Below, piece after piece: positions 262-11,312 of a DNA stretch of 34,819 nucleotides. The notes under the pieces are model-generated. The model made no database searches, was not told where the DNA came from, and worked only from the letters and a program-made list of their open reading frames with translations. Location of the stretch: contig CAIZWN010000053.1 in the NCBI GenBank assembly GCA_903936705.1, positions 1 to 34,819 of the forward strand. The letters run 5' to 3'. The stretch comes from an uncultured Myxococcales bacterium. Its GTDB lineage: Bacteria; Myxococcota_A; UBA9042; DTJE01. The translations under genes were made by a program, and so were the position numbers. Position 1 is the stretch's first letter. Every line of letters begins with the position of its first letter.

Positions 262-2919
262 TCAAGGAACGGGCCCGCGGCCAAGAACGACCAGCCGTAG
301 GTTCACGCTGTCGACTACAAGCAGTCGTCCGCGCGTGTCGAATTCCATGCCCAGAGGATATGCAAACTCGGCTGGACCGCTGCCATAGGCGCCATAGCGA
401 TCATCGACGCGCCCGGTCAGGTCCATTACAACCAGTCGGTGGTTATAGGTGTCTGAAACGAAGAAGCGATCCCCGCCCATGACGGCAGCACCGTAGGGCT
501 GGGCAAGCGCGATCCCATCGTCGGGGACAATTGTGGCGAGGTGAACACCTGTCTTCGAGAACGCCTGCAGTCGACCGTTCTGGGTGTCGCAGACCAGTAC
601 GCCTCCGTCGGGAAGGGCAACCGCGCAGGAGGGGCTGCGAAACTGGCCGTCAAGCCTGCCGTAGGATCCGATGACTACCTGGACAGTTCCAAAGGGCGAA
701 ATTCCCTGGACCCTATGGTTTCCAGTATCGGCAACCCACAACACGTCGCCGTCAGCGGATAAGCCCAGTCCTTTAGGATCGTTGAAGCTTCCAGGTCCCT
801 CTCCCTTCGACCCCACCGTCCAAAGGAAGACTCCGGCTGGCGAAAAGGTCTGAATCCGATGGTTCAACGAATCGGCCACGTACACGTGGTCAGTGTCGGC
901 AGCAAGACCGCGAGGAAACTGGAAGAGCCCTGGGGCAGTCCCCTGCCCACCGAATGAACCAGCATCCTTCGCGGCGCCATCGGTCAGGATCAACACCCGA
1001 TGGGCATCGCGATCACTGACGAATATCCGGGAACCGTCAGGAGCCACTGCCACGTCGGAGGGGCCCTTCAACGAGATCCCCGAGCCTGTAGCGCCGGGCG
1101 TTGACTGCACCGATAATACCGACAGGTAGCTGCAAGATCCCTGCAGGCATTCGGCATGCCAACCCAGCGACGTGCAATCGGAACTTCGGTTGCACGAGGA
1201 TGGCTGGCATGGGCTGGTGATCGAGACATCGTCCACCACCACTCCCTGGCCATCGTTGGCAATACCGTCGAGGGTGTCGAAGCGGAACCGCAAGCGGATC
1301 GTTTTGCCGGTCATTGCTGACAAGTCCAAGGTCACGTTCTGCCACGATCGCATTGGGAAGTTCGCGGGTCTTGTCCAGGCGACGGATGCTAAATCTTGTT
1401 GTTCTATTACTTCCACGAAAAACTGATCCTGGCCAGGGGCCATCTCGACGTCCTGCCATGTTCGAAATTCAAGTGTCAGTCGGACGCCAGCCGGCAGCGT
1501 CACTGGCGGCGAGGTAGCCGATCCACTGGCGCGTTCCCCGTTGTCATAGGTCGTGCCAAGGGTGTTCCCGAATACCAGCGCGTTGCCAACTGCCGCCTGG
1601 GCAGGGATCACGTGCCAGCCGATGCCGTCCTTGCCAGGCGCATCCAGTTCGAACGGGACCGAAGAGCCATCATCGAAACCGGTCTGAAAGGGCTGCGGGG
1701 TGCAGCAAATCGGGTTCGGGGCTGGAGCTTGCACGCACCGCGCTTCGTGGCACCTGTTGATGGTGCAGTTGTCGCCGTCGTTGCATTCGATGTCCTGGCC
1801 GCAGCAGCCTGGCTGGTTGGCCGTCGAATGGCTGCAATGGCCGGCAGCACAAGTGTCCAGCGTGCAGGAATTCCCGTCGTCACAGTCAAGGAAGGTTTCG
1901 CAGGCGCACGCGGGGACCGGGTCGTTTACGCACGATCCGTCCAGGCAGGTGTCCTGCGTGCAAATGTCACCGTCACTACAGTCGATCGGGAGGCCGATGC
2001 AGGTGCCCTCGAAACATTCTCCTGACGCCAGGCAAGGGTCGTCGGCAGGCAGGCAGCTTCCGGCGACCGGCACGTGCACGCATCCCAGCAGCAGGTTGCA
2101 ATGGTCGTCAGTGCATGGGTTGGAGTCGGAACAGGACGCATCACCTCCGGAAACGCATTTTCCGGCATCGCAGTGATCCTTGATGGTGCAGGGGTTATTG
2201 TCATTGCAGGCCGTTCCATCGGCCGGGAGGAATTCGCACTCACCTGTAGCTGGCATGCACGAGTCGATCGTGCACGGGTTGTTGTCGTCGCACGCCATTG
2301 AGGTTCGCGGAAGGCATCGCCCAGCTTCGCAGCCATCGCCCAGCGTGCATGGGTCGCCGTCGTCGCAGTCCTCGATCACCTTGATTCCGCTGCCCTCCAT
2401 CAGACACAAGGCGAGGGTGGAGTCATGACAGAATTTCGAGTCCGGGATGCAAACCCATGGACGACAAACGGTAGCATCGCACCAGGAGCCCTCAAGGCAG
2501 TCGTCCGGGCCAATGCAAGGGCAGGGCGCCGTCTCGGGATCGCATGCTTGGCCTGAATCCGACCTTTCTTCGGATGGCGAATCCGCGGAGAATCCATCGA
2601 GGAGGACCGAAACTTCATCGGCGTCGTCGATCTTGTCCAGGTCGTTGCCGCAAGGCCCAACCTTGCAGTCCCGAATTTCTGACGGCATGTTCTGGTCTTC
2701 ACCGACCAAGCCGTCTGCAGCATTGTCGCTCCATTCATCCTGGAACGAAGAAGGGACATCGACTGGTTCTACTGGCAGCGCATTCCCGCAACCCGACAAC
2801 AGCACCAGCACTGCGACTGCCAGGAACGCCTTGTCTCGCAAGCAAAGCCCAACGGTAGTTGAACCGGGAATCGCAGACGGACGATCGACAAATCGCTGAT
2901 CCCTGACTGCTTCCAGCAC
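262..2919 (-). CDS. Secreted lipoprotein with Cys-rich repeats, MAM/jelly-roll-like domain and NHL beta-propeller
   Basis: A predicted 885-residue surface or periplasmic lipoprotein. The GTG start at 2919 has GGAGG nine bases upstream. A hydrophobic stretch ends in the lipobox LLSGC (Cys44), after an unusually long, charged 25-residue leader; a TTG start nearer the hydrophobic core is possible. Residues about 125-405 carry at least seven Cys-rich units of the form CxDxNPCTxDxC, such as CDDNNPCTIDSC and CNDNNPCTIKDHC, common in secreted proteins of Myxococcota. Residues about 410-570 look like a MAM/galactose-binding-type beta-sandwich, with TGFDDGS at the start and VVVDDVSI at the end. Residues about 620-880 contain NHL repeats such as VYVADSLNHRIQTFSPAG, consistent with a six-bladed propeller. 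The fold suggests ligand or protein binding outside the cell. No catalytic residues are evident. It is divergent from the PEGA gene and stands alone. Confidence 0.85.
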   Translation of the reverse strand: MLEAVRDQRFVDRPSAIPGSTTVGLCLRDKAFLAVAVLVLLSGCGNALPVEPVDVPSSFQDEWSDNAADGLVGEDQNMPSEIRDCKVGPCGNDLDKIDDADEVSVLLDGFSADSPSEERSDSGQACDPETAPCPCIGPDDCLEGSWCDATVCRPWVCIPDSKFCHDSTLALCLMEGSGIKVIEDCDDGDPCTLGDGCEAGRCLPRTSMACDDNNPCTIDSCMPATGECEFLPADGTACNDNNPCTIKDHCDAGKCVSGGDASCSDSNPCTDDHCNLLLGCVHVPVAGSCLPADDPCLASGECFEGTCIGLPIDCSDGDICTQDTCLDGSCVNDPVPACACETFLDCDDGNSCTLDTCAAGHCSHSTANQPGCCGQDIECNDGDNCTINRCHEARCVQAPAPNPICCTPQPFQTGFDDGSSVPFELDAPGKDGIGWHVIPAQAAVGNALVFGNTLGTTYDNGERASGSATSPPVTLPAGVRLTLEFRTWQDVEMAPGQDQFFVEVIEQQDLASVAWTRPANFPMRSWQNVTLDLSAMTGKTIRLRFRFDTLDGIANDGQGVVVDDVSITSPCQPSSCNRSSDCTSLGWHAECLQGSCSYLSVLSVQSTPGATGSGISLKGPSDVAVAPDGSRIFVSDRDAHRVLILTDGAAKDAGSFGGQGTAPGLFQFPRGLAADTDHVYVADSLNHRIQTFSPAGVFLWTVGSKGEGPGSFNDPKGLGLSADGDVLWVADTGNHRVQGISPFGTVQVVIGSYGRLDGQFRSPSCAVALPDGGVLVCDTQNGRLQAFSKTGVHLATIVPDDGIALAQPYGAAVMGGDRFFVSDTYNHRLVVMDLTGRVDDRYGAYGSGPAEFAYPLGMEFDTRGRLLVVDSVNLRLVVLGRGPVP

Positions 2920-4247: not shown

Positions 4248-5042
4248 CTACTCGGCACACTTCGGGCGGCAATCCAGCGGGTTCAGTGCCACGTACGGGC
4301 AGACAACGGCGTCCACCGGTTCCTCCTGGCCGATCAAACATGGGATGTCGGTGACCTCAGACGAACAGAACGGCCTTACAAGACATCCCCAGCAGAGCTG
4401 AATCGGGAATGAAAATTCGTTCGAGGTGATGACGTTCCTGTCCTGGGTCTCGGCCACAAGCGAAGCGTACACGGTGATCCAGATGGCCGGGTATTTGTTA
4501 CTTAGCGCGTCACCTTTCAGTGCCTTCATTTTCTTCATGAAGTAGGCGCCCAGTTCGGGCGTGATCAGTTGAACGCTGATTGTGGCGTCAGCCTGCGGCT
4601 CGGCCCAACTGTTCGCGAAGGACTCGACGCCCGTAAACTGGTACTTGTACGCAAGTTGGGCGTCGGTTTTCGAGTCCGATTTTCCGGGGGAGAATTCGCC
4701 TACGTTCACGAAGATTTTCGCACGCTGCACTGACATGTAGTGGACTTCGTTTACCAGCGAAGCAGGACTCTCGCCAGTCAATGTGCCAATTGGAAGCAGC
4801 ATGTTCCGGAAGTGCAGACGCGCCCAATACTGGTTGGTCAGCAGCAGGTCCATCGTACCAAAGGACAAAAATTCCCCACCAGCAGCACTAGCCGCGCAGC
4901 CGTTCTGTCGCGTGACAGGCTGCACATCCAGAACCAGCAAGGATTCGGCAGAGGTGTGATCGCAGGTGACGATCCCTGGCACGACGGCCAGCACCGCAAT
5001 CAGTGCCAGCGCACGCCAGGCGTTGAGGATTCGACTTCTCAC
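4248..5042 (-). CDS. Secreted protein coupled to the PilQ-like secretin
   Basis: A 264-residue protein with an N-terminal export signal (ALALIAVLAVVPGIVTC). The Cys could be a lipidation site, but Thr at -1 is a poor lipobox, so secreted versus lipoprotein is undecided. The mature part looks beta-rich and has clustered cysteines near the C-terminus (FPIQLCWGCLVRPFC, then two more pairs), suggesting disulfides. From memory, similar proteins with an xFPIxLCxGCLV signature occur as uncharacterised secreted proteins in Myxococcota; this was not verified. Its ATG overlaps the stop codon of the upstream secretin gene (ATGA, 5039-5042), so the two should be translated together. The context suggests a secretin-associated role, such as a pilotin-like or accessory envelope protein. 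That is inference, and no known pilotin motif (TPR, PilP or Tgl type) is seen. Confidence 0.8.
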   Translation of the reverse strand: MRSRILNAWRALALIAVLAVVPGIVTCDHTSAESLLVLDVQPVTRQNGCAASAAGGEFLSFGTMDLLLTNQYWARLHFRNMLLPIGTLTGESPASLVNEVHYMSVQRAKIFVNVGEFSPGKSDSKTDAQLAYKYQFTGVESFANSWAEPQADATISVQLITPELGAYFMKKMKALKGDALSNKYPAIWITVYASLVAETQDRNVITSNEFSFPIQLCWGCLVRPFCSSEVTDIPCLIGQEEPVDAVVCPYVALNPLDCRPKCAE

Positions 5043-8000
5043 AGTGCCACCTCCCGGTTCACCACCTTCGGCGTGATGAATATCAGCAACTCCGAGCGGT
5101 TATCCTGCTGGGAGCGTGACTTGAACAGCCATCCAAGAATCGGAATGTCCCCCAGGAGAGGAATCTTCTTGTATGACTTTGAAGTCGTGCGAGTGTAGAT
5201 GCCGCCTATGACCGTAGTGTCGCCATCCCTGATCATCAACTCGGTGTGTGCTTCCTTCTTCTGGATGGTCGGGTTGCCGTTCGCGCCGGTGTTTCCGAAG
5301 TCGGGTTCGTTCTTGGTGATGTCCAGCTTCAGCTTGATATGCCCGTCGCGGGTAACGTGAGGCGTAACGTCCAGGCTGAGGTCAGCCGAGAAAAACTGCG
5401 TGTTCACGCCGGCTGCAGACACGACGCTGATGGGAATCGAAACGCCCTGCTGGATTCGAGCTTTCCTGTTATCAAGAGTCGAAATACGCGGCGAGGAGAT
5501 TATCTTTACGTCGCCGGTAGACTCGGCAGCCGACAGGCGCAGGGTAAGATTTCCAGCGCCACCTATCGAGCCAAGCTGGAGGCCGATGGCGCCGCCCGCG
5601 CCCTGACCGACCGCCGCCGGGAGGTTTACCGCCCAGTTCGGGTTGGCTACCGATAGACCACCGGTGTTGCCGGCAGGCGTAGCTCCACCAGCCAGACCGA
5701 TGCTGCTGGGGAAGGCCAGTCCGGTCTCGTTGCCGTATGCAGAAGCCATCGCAAACTTGCCGCCCCACTGGATACCGATATCCTCGGTGAATGTCGTCCG
5801 TGCCTCGACGATACGGGCCTCGATCAGGATCTGGGCAGTCTGCTGGTCAAGCCTACGAACCAGATCCTCGGCCGCCTCAAGGTAGTCTTCGGTGTCCTTG
5901 ATGATCAGTGTGTTTGTTCGCGAATCGATGCTGACTGAACCCTTCGGCGACAGCACCGTCTGAAGGCGCGTTACCATCTCGTCGCCTTCGCTGTAGTTGA
6001 CAGGCAGCAGGCGAACTATGACGGGCTTCAGTTCCTGGACCTTCTTTTGCTTGTCGACCTGCGCTTCGTACTCCTTGCGGATCGCATCAATCGGCGCGAC
6101 GCGGTAGATGCCCTGCTCGATGACGTAGTCCAGCCCCTTGGCCTTGAGAACGGTGTCCAGGGCCAGATCCCACGGCACGTCTTCAAGGTGGAATGTCACC
6201 TTGCCGCTGACGTTCTCGGATGTCACCACGTTCACCTTGCCCTCGCGGGCCAGGAACGTGAGCACGTTGTGAATTTCCGCATCCTTCACGGTCAGATTGA
6301 TGCGTTTGCCTCGGTATTTCTTCTTTTTGGGCACCATTGCCGGCTTCAGGTATTCCCGCTGGTTCTCGCCGGTTCCGGCCACAATGGTCCCGGCAGTGGC
6401 CGATCCCATGGGCGAGGCAGCAACTGCCGGGGCGAACGCAGGCGCGAAGTTCGGTGGAGGTGCCGTCGGCAAGGCGCGGGCAACCATCCTGGCCGGAGGT
6501 GTCTCGCGCTGGGTCGCCGGGGTCACGGCATTGCCGGCCATGAAACTTTCTGACGTTTGGCCCGAGAAGGTCCACGAAAGGCGGCCGTCCGCCACCTGGA
6601 CCTCCTGGCCCACCGGCCGAGCAAGTTCAGCGATAATCTTGACCAAACCATCTGGTGTCGCAAACGCGCTGACCATTGATACCCTGGATTCGAACGCGGT
6701 CACGTCCATCCGTCGTTCCAGATCCTTGGGCAGCGTAGCGTTGCTGATCGTCATGATCCACTGGTTCTTGCCAGCGGAAACCTCGTACCGAGGGTCGCCA
6801 TCGACGCCCAGCACCAGGGTCGGACCCGTTCGTGTCGACTTGAAGTCGATCGTTCTGATCACGGATTTTGGAGTCGGAGTTGGTGCCTGAGCGGTCGCCT
6901 GGACGGCAGAGACCTTCTGCTGGCTGCGGGCAAGGCTGTCCTCAAGTTCGTGCTGCAGGCGGGTAACCTCGGCCTCGCGTGAAGTCAGCTGTCTGGCCAG
7001 TTCTGATGCCTCGGCACGGGCACCCAGGAGGTCCTTGTCGGACCTGGCTTGCGCAGAAACCAACTCGTCGATTCGGGACGCTGCTTTCGCCTCGCGATCC
7101 AGTGCCTCGCGCTCCTTTGCGCGTGCCGTCGTCATGTCCGCGCGAGCACGGTCTGCCAAGACTTGCGCCGACTCAAGATCCGACTTCAGCTTCTTCTGAT
7201 CCTCGGCAACTATGCCAGCCTTGCGAGCTGCGGCCTCGCGTTCGCTGGCCTTGGCCAGCTCGGTTTCGCGCAGGGATACAAGGCTCTTCAGGCGAGCGAC
7301 TTCCTCGGATTCTCTTGCCGAGCCTGACGCCTTCAGGCCATCAAGCTCACGGGCCAGTTCGACGATCCTGACGTCCCTCTGGGATATGCCGGTCTTCGAG
7401 GAGGCAACTTCCTTCTGGTACTCGCCGCGCAATGCCTTCAGTTCAATCTGCTGGGCCTCAACCTTTCGTTTCAGCAGGGCGGCGCGAGTCTCTTCCTGCT
7501 TGTTCGTGCGCCCTGCCTTGCGGGCATCGTCGTATGCCTTTCGCAGTACCTGCATCTCGGCTTCGCGGCTGCTAAGGCGATCTTTCAGGCGCGCGACCTC
7601 CGTCGATTCCCCGCGTGAACGGTCGCTCTTCAGTCGCTGCAGTTCCTCGCCAAGGCGGCTGACTTCCTTGGTTCTGCGGTTCGCAAGAGCATCGGCACGA
7701 GCCAGCCGATCGGCAAGATCCGCCTGGACTTCCTTCAGCGAACGCTCCTTGGCGGCAAGACTTGCCTGAAGCCTCTCGACCTCGGCCCGATCCGCCCTGC
7801 CGGCCTTTTCTGCCTGCAGCGCCGAACGCAGCGCGGCAACTTCCTTCTCCTTGGTTGCCGCAGAATCCTGCGCGCCGGCCACCTCGTTCCTGGCCTTGGC
7901 CATCTCCGAGGTAAGTTCTCGAATCGTTGCATCCTTGGATGCCGATTCAGCGCGGGCGGCCTGAACGTCGGCCCGCAACTCGTTCAGCTCGCGGTCTCTC

Positions 8001-11000
8001 GCGGCGACCTCGCGTTCGCGCTGGGACACCTGTTGTGCCAGCGAGGCGATCTTGGCGTTGTCGATTCCCTGCGTCTGAGCCCTTGCTGCCGCCAGCTCCT
8101 GGCGCAATGCCGCCAGTTCGGCCTCGCGGCGAACCTGCAGTTCCTGGATCTGCTGGCGGGCCTCGGCCACCGCGCGTTCAGCTTCCAGACGCTGGCTGGA
8201 AATCAGGGCCAGTTGCCCTTCCTCCACGGCCAGGCGTCGGGTTGTCTCGCCATACGCGGCATTCACCTGGGCACCAGCAGCCTCGGCTGAGGCCAGGCTC
8301 TCGCTTGTCTTTTGTTCGCGCGCGGCGGCTTTGCGGGCCTCTTCCTCGGCGATCCGGGTTCGTTCCGCAAGCTCCGCGCTTGTCTTCTGTTCACGGCCAA
8401 CTGCCTTGCGGGCCTCTTCCTCGGCGATTCGAGTGCGCTCAGCAAGCTCCGCGTTTGTCTTCTGTTCGCGTGCGGCTGCCTTGCGTGCTTCCGCCTCGGC
8501 GGTCCTGGTGAGTTCTGCAAGAGCGGCGATTGTCTTTTGTTCGCGTGCAGCTGCCTTGCTGGCTTCTTCCTCTGCGATCCGGGTGCGTTCGACGAGCTCC
8601 GCGTTTGTCTTCTGTTCGCGTGCGGCTGCCTTGCGTGCTTCCGCCTCGGCGGTCCTGGTGAGTTCTGCAAGAGCGGCGCTTGTCTTTTGTTCGCGCGCAG
8701 CTGCCTTGATGGCTTCTTCCTCTGCGATCCGGGTGCGTTCGACAAGCTCGGCGTTTGTCTTTTTTTCACGTTCCGCTGCCACTCGAGCCTTGTCCTCGGC
8801 GACCCGTGCTCGTTCGGCGAGTTCGACGCTGTTCTTCTGTTCGCGTGCGGCTGCCTTGCGGGCCTCGTCCTCAGCAATTCGCGCCCGTGTGGCAAGCTCG
8901 GCGCTGTTCTTCTGTTCGCGTGCGGCTGCCTTGCGGGCCTCGTCCTCGGCAATCCGTGTGCGTTCTACAAGTTCCGCGCTTGTCTTACGGTCCCGTTCTG
9001 CTGCCTTGCGGGCCTCGTCCTCGGCAATTCGCGCCCGCGTGGCAAGCTCGGCGCTGTTCTTCTGTTCGCGTGCGGCTGCCTTGCGGGCCTCGTCCTCGGC
9101 AATCCTTGTGCGTTCTACGAGTTCCGCGCTTGTCTTACGGTCCCGTTCTGCTGCCTTGCGGGCCTCGCCCTCGGCAATGCGCGCCCGTGTGGCCAACTCG
9201 GAGCTGTTCTTCTGTTCGCGGTCGGCTGCCTTGCGGGCCTCGTCCTCGGCAATTTGCGCCTGTGCGGCAAGCTCTGAACTTGCCTTCTGTTCGCGTTCTG
9301 CCGACTTTCTCGCCTCTGCCTCGGCGATTCCTGTTCTGGCGGCCAGACTCTCGCGGGTTTTCTCTTCGCGCACCTGGGCTTGTTGCGCCTGGTTCTCGGC
9401 GGTTCGGGCGCGAGCGGCCAGCGCCTCATGTTCGGCCTGGACCTCGGCAAGACGTTTTTCCAGCATGCCCGAGCGTGCTTTCGCCGCCGCCAGTTCAGTG
9501 GCAGCATTTCTGGCGGAAATTTCGGCCGCGCGACGACTTTCGTCCCTGGAAGATGCCTCGGATGCAGCCTTCGCTCGCTGGGCTGCCAGGGTCTCTTCCA
9601 GCTCTCGGACCTTCTGTTCAACCCTGGCAAGCGCCAGATTCTCGGCCTCGGTACGAGACTGTGCGGCCTTGGTTCGGGTCGATACCTCCAGCTTTCTGGC
9701 GGCGTTCAGCTCGGCAAGAAGTTTTTCCTCGTTCTGGCGAGAGGTCCGTGCCTGTGCCAGTCCGTCACTTTCCTGCTTCGCCAGTTCCTTCTGCGCAGTG
9801 CGATTGGCATCCTCGGCGTCACGGGCCGCCCGAACGGCCACCAGTCGGTCCTGTTCCGTCTTCACGGCAATTTGCGTCTGTGCAGCAAGATCGGCGCCTG
9901 CCCTCTTTTCACGTTCGGCCGCCTTTCTGGCGTCAGCCTCGGCGACTCCTGTCCGAGCGGCCAGATCCTCGCGGGCTTTCTGCTCTCGCGCCACGGCCTG
10001 GCGCGCCTGGTCCTCGGCGGTCCGGGCACGAACGGCCAATGCCTCACGTTCGGCCTGGACCTCGGCAAGACGCTTCTCCAGCGAGACGGAACGTGCCTTC
10101 GCTGCCGCCAGTTCCGTTGCAGTGCTTCTGGCGGAAACCTCGGCTGCGCGACGATTGTCGTCCCTGGAAGATGCCTCGGCGGCAGCCGTCGTTCGCTGGG
10201 CCGCAAGGGTTGCTTCAAGTTCACGGACTTTCTGATCAGCCTTGGCAAGCGCCAGGTTCTCGGCTTCGGTCCGAGTCTGAGCCGCCTTGCTTCGGGCAGC
10301 AGCCTCCTGTTTCCTGGCCGCGGTCAGCTCGGCAAGAAGCTTTTCCTCGCGCTGGCGAGAGCTGCGAGCTTGTTCCAGTCCGATCCGTTCCTGTTTCGTA
10401 AGTTCGCTCTGCGCAGCGCGATTGGCCTCCTCAGCCTCTCGCGCCACACGTACGGCCGCCAATCGGTCCTGCTCCGTCCTGACCGCAGCCTCACTCTGTG
10501 CCTTCAGTGCCTGAAGTTGGCGCTCGCTGGCGGCGGTCCGTTCGGCGGCAACCCTGGCAGCCTCGTCAGCCTTCAGCCTCATCTCTTCGGCTCGCCTGGT
10601 GTCGGCGTCGGCACGGCCTCGTGCTTCGGCAGCATCGCGCTGGGCCTGAGCCTGAAGCCGTGTTGCCTCCAGGCGCAGGCGCTCGGCCTCGATGCGGCTG
10701 GCATCCTCTCTAATCTTCAATGCCTGATCGCGCTCCCGCGCTTCGCGCAGCTGGCGCAGCAATTCCTGTTCGTGCTTCAGTTCCTCTCGAACGGTCGAAA
10801 CTTGTCGTGCTAGTGCCCCGGCCTCGGCGGTCGATGCACGCCGTCCCGCGGCGTCGATGTGGACGACAATCCCGTTTCCCACGGTTTTCACATCATAGGG
10901 AACGTCCTGTCTGAGGCCGATTATTATCCGGCCCATCGGCACACCGGACGACTTGAACTGCAGCGTGCCAACCTGGTCGAGAATCCCGTTGTCTACAACA

Positions 11001-11245
11001 ATTGGTTCCGCAACCTTGGACACTTCTCCCTGGTTGACATCGACGAACAGGCGCACCGGATCGTCCAGCTTGAAGACGCTGAAGGTCGGTGTTCTAGAGG
11101 CCGTGATCGTGACAACGGTTTCGGTTGCCTCTTCACTGACCTTGATTCCGGTAATCGAGTTGGACCCTGCGTCCTGACTCGTCACCACGGCGGGAACGAC
11201 AAGCACCAGCAACACTAGCGGTCCCGCAAAGCGAGAGCGTGACAT
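5039..11245 (-). CDS. pilQ: Giant PilQ-like secretin with a ~1300-residue coiled-coil insert
   Basis: Type IV pilus-type outer-membrane secretin, the channel through which the pilus leaves the cell. The chosen ATG (11245) has GGAGG five to six bases upstream, starts a clear signal peptide (FAGPLVLLVLVVPAVV) and sits downstream of a good promoter; the in-frame extension to 11305 lacks these. Domain order over 2068 residues: signal peptide 1-23; AMIN domain about 31-132 (peptidoglycan-binding type); nearly uninterrupted Ala/Arg/Glu-rich coiled coil about 135-1445; second AMIN domain about 1458-1560; secretin N0/STN domain from about 1640 (LTVKDAEIHNVLTFLAREG); N1 domain (IDSRTNTLIIKDTEDYL); secretin core to the end (SSPRISTLDNRKARI, GDTTVIGGIY, KKIPLLGDIPILGWLF). 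Typical PilQ is about 450-900 residues, so the insert is exceptional. No pilMNOP genes lie upstream. It could serve another secretin system, but the AMIN-STN-secretin order favours PilQ. Confidence 0.9.
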   Translation of the reverse strand: MSRSRFAGPLVLLVLVVPAVVTSQDAGSNSITGIKVSEEATETVVTITASRTPTFSVFKLDDPVRLFVDVNQGEVSKVAEPIVVDNGILDQVGTLQFKSSGVPMGRIIIGLRQDVPYDVKTVGNGIVVHIDAAGRRASTAEAGALARQVSTVREELKHEQELLRQLREARERDQALKIREDASRIEAERLRLEATRLQAQAQRDAAEARGRADADTRRAEEMRLKADEAARVAAERTAASERQLQALKAQSEAAVRTEQDRLAAVRVAREAEEANRAAQSELTKQERIGLEQARSSRQREEKLLAELTAARKQEAAARSKAAQTRTEAENLALAKADQKVRELEATLAAQRTTAAAEASSRDDNRRAAEVSARSTATELAAAKARSVSLEKRLAEVQAEREALAVRARTAEDQARQAVAREQKAREDLAARTGVAEADARKAAEREKRAGADLAAQTQIAVKTEQDRLVAVRAARDAEDANRTAQKELAKQESDGLAQARTSRQNEEKLLAELNAARKLEVSTRTKAAQSRTEAENLALARVEQKVRELEETLAAQRAKAASEASSRDESRRAAEISARNAATELAAAKARSGMLEKRLAEVQAEHEALAARARTAENQAQQAQVREEKTRESLAARTGIAEAEARKSAEREQKASSELAAQAQIAEDEARKAADREQKNSSELATRARIAEGEARKAAERDRKTSAELVERTRIAEDEARKAAAREQKNSAELATRARIAEDEARKAAERDRKTSAELVERTRIAEDEARKAAAREQKNSAELATRARIAEDEARKAAAREQKNSVELAERARVAEDKARVAAEREKKTNAELVERTRIAEEEAIKAAAREQKTSAALAELTRTAEAEARKAAAREQKTNAELVERTRIAEEEASKAAAREQKTIAALAELTRTAEAEARKAAAREQKTNAELAERTRIAEEEARKAVGREQKTSAELAERTRIAEEEARKAAAREQKTSESLASAEAAGAQVNAAYGETTRRLAVEEGQLALISSQRLEAERAVAEARQQIQELQVRREAELAALRQELAAARAQTQGIDNAKIASLAQQVSQREREVAARDRELNELRADVQAARAESASKDATIRELTSEMAKARNEVAGAQDSAATKEKEVAALRSALQAEKAGRADRAEVERLQASLAAKERSLKEVQADLADRLARADALANRRTKEVSRLGEELQRLKSDRSRGESTEVARLKDRLSSREAEMQVLRKAYDDARKAGRTNKQEETRAALLKRKVEAQQIELKALRGEYQKEVASSKTGISQRDVRIVELARELDGLKASGSARESEEVARLKSLVSLRETELAKASEREAAARKAGIVAEDQKKLKSDLESAQVLADRARADMTTARAKEREALDREAKAASRIDELVSAQARSDKDLLGARAEASELARQLTSREAEVTRLQHELEDSLARSQQKVSAVQATAQAPTPTPKSVIRTIDFKSTRTGPTLVLGVDGDPRYEVSAGKNQWIMTISNATLPKDLERRMDVTAFESRVSMVSAFATPDGLVKIIAELARPVGQEVQVADGRLSWTFSGQTSESFMAGNAVTPATQRETPPARMVARALPTAPPPNFAPAFAPAVAASPMGSATAGTIVAGTGENQREYLKPAMVPKKKKYRGKRINLTVKDAEIHNVLTFLAREGKVNVVTSENVSGKVTFHLEDVPWDLALDTVLKAKGLDYVIEQGIYRVAPIDAIRKEYEAQVDKQKKVQELKPVIVRLLPVNYSEGDEMVTRLQTVLSPKGSVSIDSRTNTLIIKDTEDYLEAAEDLVRRLDQQTAQILIEARIVEARTTFTEDIGIQWGGKFAMASAYGNETGLAFPSSIGLAGGATPAGNTGGLSVANPNWAVNLPAAVGQGAGGAIGLQLGSIGGAGNLTLRLSAAESTGDVKIISSPRISTLDNRKARIQQGVSIPISVVSAAGVNTQFFSADLSLDVTPHVTRDGHIKLKLDITKNEPDFGNTGANGNPTIQKKEAHTELMIRDGDTTVIGGIYTRTTSKSYKKIPLLGDIPILGWLFKSRSQQDNRSELLIFITPKVVNREVAL
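8321..9370 (-). repeat. Fourteen tandem 75-bp (25-residue) coiled-coil repeats within pilQ
   Basis: Exactly fourteen 75-bp units run from 9370 down to 8321; a degenerate fifteenth begins at 8320. The consensus unit reads R-E-Q-K-x-S-A-E-L-A-x-R-x-R-I-A-E-x-E-A-R-K-A-A-A. Units alternate in pairs, giving 150-bp dimers. For example, the blocks beginning at 8461 and 8611 are almost identical, and so are those around 8911 and 9061. The length is always a multiple of three, so unit gain or loss keeps the frame. Confidence 0.9.
9242..10477 (-). repeat. Direct duplication of a 206-residue (618-bp) coiled-coil block in pilQ
   Basis: Two copies sit head to tail: 10477-9860 and 9859-9242 on the minus strand. 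Each begins TEQDRLxAVRxAR and shares the landmarks EEKLLAEL, TEAENLALA, KVRELE, ATELAAAKARS and LEKRLAEVQAE in the same order and spacing. The second copy runs into the 25-residue tandem array. Coiled-coil growth therefore came from at least two duplication scales. Confidence 0.85.
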
Positions 11246-11283
11246 CACGACCTCCGGGCGAAAGGAACCATTTTCTCGCTGCA

Positions 11284-11312
11284 ATCGTAAACGCGCCTGT
11301 CGCACAGGTCAA
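11284..11312 (-). promoter_or_regulatory. Sigma-70 type promoter of the pilQ operon
   Basis: On the minus strand, TTGACC (11312-11307) and TACGAT (11289-11284) are separated by 17 bp. Transcription would begin near 11277, about 30 nt before the ATG at 11245. This supports that start over the upstream in-frame alternative at 11305, which lies inside the promoter. Confidence 0.55.

Follow-up and report, generated by a model that had tools for sequence, protein, structure and literature searches.

A PilQ secretin with a long helical insert between its AMIN domains, recurrent among Myxococcota

Few bacterial secretins have been studied as thoroughly as PilQ, that of the type IVa pilus. The PilQ proteins of Pseudomonas aeruginosa, Vibrio cholerae and Neisseria (PDB 6VE2, 6W6M and 4AV2) are 571 to 761 aa long in total and lack the insert described below. 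Myxococcus xanthus PilQ (901 aa; PDB 3JC8) has three AMIN domains and flexible linkers; as far as consulted, a 2023 survey of PilQ AMIN architectures reports no long helical insert in this protein and mentions none in others (PMC10653833). AMIN domains are required for the recruitment of PilQ to the septum and poles in M. xanthus (PMC10653833) and to midcell in P. aeruginosa (PMC5285504), requirements ascribed in both cases to peptidoglycan binding. Outside the secretins, SlpA of Deinococcus radiodurans and the OmpM-like connectors combine an outer-membrane pore, a coiled coil and an N-terminal peptidoglycan-binding domain, but SlpA uses SLH instead of AMIN, a trimeric porin-like barrel instead of a secretin and a stalk of ~28 nm, and is unrelated by descent (PMC9388160).

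The DNA analysed here, called the window, is a stretch of 34,819 nucleotides from an uncultured Myxococcales bacterium. On its minus strand, frame 5039..11305 is free of stops and encodes 2,088 aa, with GTG at 11305 as its outer limit. The start is more likely the ATG at 11245 (residue 21 of the open frame), because a good signal-peptide-like stretch, MSRSRFAGPLVLLVLVVPAVVTSQ, comes right after it (Table 1). The original prediction had proposed that this gene encodes a PilQ-like secretin in which a coiled coil separates two AMIN domains. Both the identity and the domain order were confirmed: the NCBIfam PilQ model TIGR02515 matched with 426.7 bits against a cut-off of 284.35 (E 1e-127), and the Pfam scan of the window found two AMIN stretches in the long protein, with STN, Secretin_N and Secretin on the C-terminal side. 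Both AMIN domains exceeded the Pfam cut-off, and a whole-genome search returned them as the only ones in this genome; the SLH family was absent from the Pfam scan of the window. M. xanthus PilQ, which likewise carries AMIN, N0, Secretin_N and secretin domains, was the best PDB match, and the core was about 21-34% identical to the P. aeruginosa, V. cholerae and Neisseria proteins in aligned structures. Judged by these matches, the long protein is a type IVa pilus secretin PilQ with AMIN1, a helix, AMIN2 and a normal STN-secretin part. The low-complexity helical stretch covers residues 151-1479 (1,329 aa), i.e. 64% of the protein, close to the 63% first estimated. Long open frames on the plus strand (8312-10813), antisense to the insert, look like by-products of codon make-up and not like genes.

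Table 1. Features of the pilQ locus (window coordinates; residues numbered in the long PilQ)
Feature	Position	Strand	Basis
264-aa predicted lipoprotein gene overlapping the pilQ stop, no Pfam family	4248..5042	-	Conserved downstream neighbour
pilQ coding region from the likely ATG, 2,068 aa	5039..11245	-	Pfam, NCBIfam, signal-peptide-like stretch
PilQ core: STN/N0, Secretin_N, secretin gate and barrel	5057..6310	-	TIGR02515; PDB PilQ matches
AMIN2	6608..6850	-	Pfam AMIN over cut-off; AF2 pLDDT about 93; AmiC match
Helical insert, residues 151-1472	6890..10855	-	Composition, proline absence, periodicity
Canonical heptad coiled coil by periodicity, residues 1008-1472 (~465)	6890..8284	-	LIVMF periodicity; family-alignable from about residue 1051
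Predicted antiparallel pair of 95-residue helices before AMIN2, turn at Gly1364	6923..7501	-	AF2, hairpin match, glycine peak
~14-copy array of a charged, Ala-rich 25-residue unit (7+7+11), residues ~658-1007	8302..9328	-	Tandem-repeat search and composition
200-residue duplication, copy 2 (residues 482-681)	9263..9862	-	74.5% aa identity to copy 1
200-residue duplication, copy 1 (residues 276-475)	9881..10480	-	74.5% aa identity, dN/dS 0.26 between copies
AMIN1	10862..11146	-	Pfam AMIN over cut-off; AF2 model like E. coli AmiC AMIN and M. xanthus PilQ AMIN1

Between the two AMIN domains, about 1,320 residues are made up of 24% Ala, 15% Glu and 14% Arg, with a nearly balanced charge; proline is absent until residue 1475 and glycines are few. 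A tandem array counted at 13.7 copies of a 75-bp unit and a 200-residue duplication lie within it, and in the array Ala and Lys/Arg recur every 3.57-3.575 residues. The insert had been described as a coiled coil over its whole length. This stood for residues ~1008-1472, which contain 18.9% LIVMF with a power of 14.7 at period 3.52, compared to a maximum of 7.6 among 100 shuffles; on this periodicity, the segment is a canonical coiled coil. A strict coiled coil throughout was rejected for residues 151-1007, where LIVMF (10.6-14.3% of residues) showed no periodicity above shuffles (power 3.3-3.9, against shuffle means of 2.7-3.5). Opposite charges at positions i and i+4 were strongly paired there, with z values against shuffles of 5.9 for residues 151-500 and 5.7 for residues 658-1007, and by composition the first two thirds of the insert look like a charged, weakly hydrophobic helix of the charged single helix kind. 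TolA domain II is a similar charged periplasmic helix, rich in Ala, Glu and Lys, but it has about 230 residues, is anchored in the inner membrane and comes without AMIN or secretin. In relatives, most hydrophobic periods fell at 3.47-3.60, along stretches of up to 1,900 residues, and the inserts held 70 prolines in 63,340 residues, a count to be read with the bias of the detection itself towards low proline. Since periodicity and charge pairing exceed those of shuffles, and the domain order recurs in more than 70 relatives, the insert is more than a product of chance.

The original prediction, which knew of no PilQ with such an insert, had recommended a search for other secretins of AMIN-coil-AMIN order. 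The insert is not unique: PilQ matches in relatives lie in very long open frames, and their translation showed the AMIN-helix-AMIN order across the window's class. All 36 PilQ proteins examined from this class carry the insert, at lengths of 319-2,014 residues, and in a phylum-wide Myxococcota sample inserts of 226-1,019 residues were found in 22 further families (f14-f19, f23-f36, f38 and f39); in f16 and in f23, a single sampled genome lacks it. Sampling of f13, f20, f21, f40-f44, f47-f52, f54-f61 and f63-f67 yielded no insert. Pfam scans of five insert-bearing and two insert-less relatives were consistent with this distribution. The length is variable even within a genus, with 1,329 residues in the window and 1,178 in a relative. 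When insert presence was mapped on a maximum likelihood tree with 114 rows, built from the secretin part, 6 changes sufficed, compared to 32.5 with shuffled labels. A single gain, at the base of a clade of 92 rows, and about five losses would account for this, the f40-f49 clade showing the largest loss, but the number of gains is not settled, because the tree comes from a short search and its midpoint root serves for drawing only. In the open-access literature searched on PilQ with AMIN, coiled coil, Bradymonadales and Myxococcota, no description of such an insert architecture turned up; the PilQ family is known, and its long-insert form appears to be undescribed there.

Some genomes departed from the general picture. 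Six genomes of the same class (G001, G021, G024, G028, G043 and G046), including all three of family f10, had no strong PilQ match; the type IVa pilus may have been lost in them, or the gene broken across contigs. One locus (L081, genome G020, contig C37) has one in-frame TAA in the PilQ frame, which cuts the secretin-bearing open frame to 400 residues. Another (L131, genome G086 of f23) encodes a PilQ of 644 aa without coil or recognisable AMIN and with a Gly/Ala/Pro/Ser-rich stretch instead; its sister genomes in f23 have coils of 294-681 residues.

An assembly artefact or fused frames might be suspected behind the long PilQ, given the fragmented draft genome from which the window comes and the tandem array inside the gene. 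We regard this as improbable in the extreme, because no exact internal repeat exceeds 84 bp and independent genomes of many families have the same domain order, including the single-contig chromosomes G053, G054 and G062 (inserts of 284-381 residues). Mis-assembly and a frameshift between coil and secretin, either of which the original prediction had named as fatal to it, were thus ruled out, as one stop-free frame also runs across both parts. On this comparison of sequences, the artefact is refuted for the family, while the copy number of the window's own array could be wrong.

Selection on the insert was estimated in several ways. A comparison of the window with its relative of the same genus gave dN/dS values of 0.08 for the secretin part, 0.10 for AMIN1, 0.14 for AMIN2 and 0.19 for the alignable coil, which are rough because synonymous sites are near saturation; the two 200-residue duplicates gave 0.26. 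Among the well-flanked coil indels of up to 60 residues collected from 20 pairs of close relatives, 12 of 28 were multiples of 7 (expected 4, p = 2e-4), not every indel being independent, because pairs share some lineages. Next in frequency came length 1, with six indels, and length 4, with four, the classical skip and stutter sizes. The stronger arrays of relatives have units such as 14, 21, 25, 28, 32, 36, 42 and 49 residues, lengths that would fit heptads and hendecads, and the 25-residue unit is shared by four families. Periods of 21 bp in the TRF output were left out of the duplication counts, as heptads by themselves can yield such a spacing. All 28 complete class members had AMIN1, at a mean pairwise identity of 46%; for AMIN2, the same search gave 22 members and 33%. 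AMIN1 is therefore better kept than AMIN2, which means that the far end is under constraint. Within the family both ends of the coil are alignable, and the middle varies in length and does not align. In family f6, a motif [DN]DYLxRQQxRIAxLE following a helix break lies 724-753 residues from the C-terminus in 11 of 12 proteins, and total coil length ranges from 1,480 to 2,014 among intact members. We conclude that the helix and its register are under selection, because of the heptad-multiple indels, the conservation of AMIN1 and dN/dS values well below 1.

The same data bear on a mostly neutral expansion, in which replication slippage would have lengthened a tolerated repetitive linker with no function of its own beyond solubility. 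Recent tandem arrays, unalignable middle segments and large variation in length are what it would leave behind, but the presence of the insert in every class member examined, the heptad-preserving indels, the dN/dS of coil and duplicates, the conserved coil ends with the f6 motif, and the near absence of proline in relatives (favoured in part by the detection) make it quite improbable.

Structures were then predicted with AlphaFold2, as monomers only, and such models tend toward back-folded helices. For the C-terminal 1,049 residues (42-row alignment), AMIN2 and N0 were modelled with pLDDT about 90, and the proximal coil was split into helices 1041-1077, 1083-1169, 1173-1230, 1235-1265, 1269-1363 and 1367-1461, i.e. 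31-95 residues long. Model region 1329-1401, in which the last of these breaks lies, matched an antiparallel hairpin in chain D of 9j3d (TMexCD1-TOprJ1 efflux pump) at 0.9 Å over 72 residues; wider stretches matched SMC-arm and F-BAR bundles, and these long-helix matches show arrangement only. The AMIN2 model matched AmiC (Z 13.5, 2.2 Å over 103), and that of AMIN1 the AMIN domain of E. coli AmiC (Z 11.0, 2.0 Å over 89) and AMIN1 of M. xanthus PilQ (Z 10.9). The N-terminal model (10 rows, mean pLDDT 60) gave AMIN1 and, beyond it, low-confidence helices 86-218 residues long. Among 73 relatives, glycine was enriched 121-140 residues before AMIN2, and a helix break about 125-145 residues before AMIN2 is conserved in two families; most glycine breaks in the coil are not conserved across the family. 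The proximal coil is thus predicted to fold into helical hairpins. The idea that the insert folds back, one of the options first considered, found agreement for this pore-proximal part, and for the N-terminal part the models gave the longer, low-confidence helices.

If back-folding extended to the whole insert, hairpins stacked around each subunit would form a massive ring between outer membrane and wall, AMIN1 would return near the pore, and length variation would alter only the width of the ring. We consider such a giant collar rather unlikely: the short proximal helices with their antiparallel hairpin and the break conserved in two families speak for it, against which stand the absence of proline and scarcity of glycine in 1,320 residues, the longer N-terminal helices, though modelled at low confidence, and the lack of family-wide conservation of most glycine breaks.

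At 0.15 nm per residue, a rod made of the window's insert would measure at most about 200 nm, and one made of the longest insert about 300 nm. The original argument that a rod of 200 nm cannot stand across a periplasm is supported. The models break the proximal part into short helices; a straight rod was therefore demoted to an upper bound. A cross-periplasm spacer, in which parallel coil bundles would set the distance between outer membrane and wall in a wide periplasm, would be the counterpart of SlpA and OmpM, with which the insert-bearing PilQ shares its plan of outer-membrane pore, coiled coil and wall-binding N-terminal domain (PMC9388160). It has little probability in our eyes, as a spacer should be more constant than rods of up to about 200-300 nm with several-fold length differences among related species, and no sign of an unusual periplasm was seen.

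The reading that we favour, tentatively and at somewhat less than an even chance, is that of a length-tunable helical tether and collar with a distal peptidoglycan anchor, carried by the type IVa PilQ of a Myxococcota lineage. What was a short linker between AMIN1 and AMIN2 would have expanded into a long periplasmic helix, and the secretin ring and AMIN2 would keep the place at the pore that they have in other PilQs. The ~100-450 residues nearest the pore, which are conserved and of canonical heptad type, would fold back into a hairpin collar around the pilus exit, and the distal charged, Ala-rich helix, variable in length, would be an extended tether running sideways along the cell wall. At the end of the tether, AMIN1 would bind peptidoglycan away from the pore; such anchoring is plausible by analogy with the published work on PilQ AMIN domains (PMC5285504, PMC10653833). 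A ring of at least 12 subunits might then distribute the pull of retraction across a wide area of wall and help to hold the machine. We favour this tether and collar because AMIN2 sits beside the ring as usual and the insert leaves AMIN1 on a long leash. The domain order, the AmiC-like fold of both AMIN models, the conservation of AMIN1, the alignable coil ends with the f6 motif, the heptad-multiple indels, the dN/dS of the coil and the likely retractile machine speak for it. By working principle its nearest analogue is SlpA, a precedent for linking an outer-membrane pore to a wall-binding domain through a long coiled coil (PMC9388160). Against it count the low confidence of the N-terminal model, the tendency of monomer models towards back-folding, and the large differences in length, even between species of the same genus, which argue against one precise span.

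In its strongest form, which we judge unlikely, the pore would be the hub of a radial net, in which at least 12 helical arms of up to 100-200 nm lie on the wall as a peptidoglycan-anchored, load-spreading foundation that the ancestor of a large Myxococcota branch already had and that several lineages later lost. Such a foundation, if it exists, would be new among retracting pili.

A PilQ up to about three times longer than usual is in use in a large part of one phylum. How a hard-pulling pilus is anchored, and how it is kept at a pole, are open questions, for which nature here provides arms of graded length, about 200 to 2,000 residues, on a single conserved machine. A laboratory test is feasible, because shorter inserts occur in single-contig genomes of family f14, which is probably Bradymonadaceae, a family with cultured, piliated predators.

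The rest of the pilus machinery was searched for in the window's genome. PilO and PilP are encoded on contig C57, apart from pilQ, which they adjoin in many relatives, and four PilT-family ATPases were over the cut-off, with further PilB/GspE-like ones below it. Because of these components, a retractile pilus machine is likely, on gene content, in this genome. Two of the PilT-family ATPases are adjacent (G000:C38:38421-40552) and two more lie elsewhere. A replacement of PilP by the coil was rejected for the window, as its genome encodes PilP, and so do several other coil-bearing genomes; in others the PilP profile was weak or unmatched. Directly downstream of pilQ, the lipoprotein family of Table 1 was found in 37 of 75 coil-bearing loci and in 3 of 38 coil-less loci, so that this neighbour is conserved across many Myxococcota families. 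It could be a pilotin or secretin partner; a partner exclusive to the coil is unsupported, since the lipoprotein follows pilQ in the three coil-less loci and is absent beside many coil-bearing ones. The remaining genes of the window are mostly unrelated. One of them (262-2919, minus strand) encodes a protein of 885 aa that looks secreted and otherwise ordinary; it has Dictyostelium-type Cys repeats as well as NHL repeats and matches choice-of-anchor J weakly.
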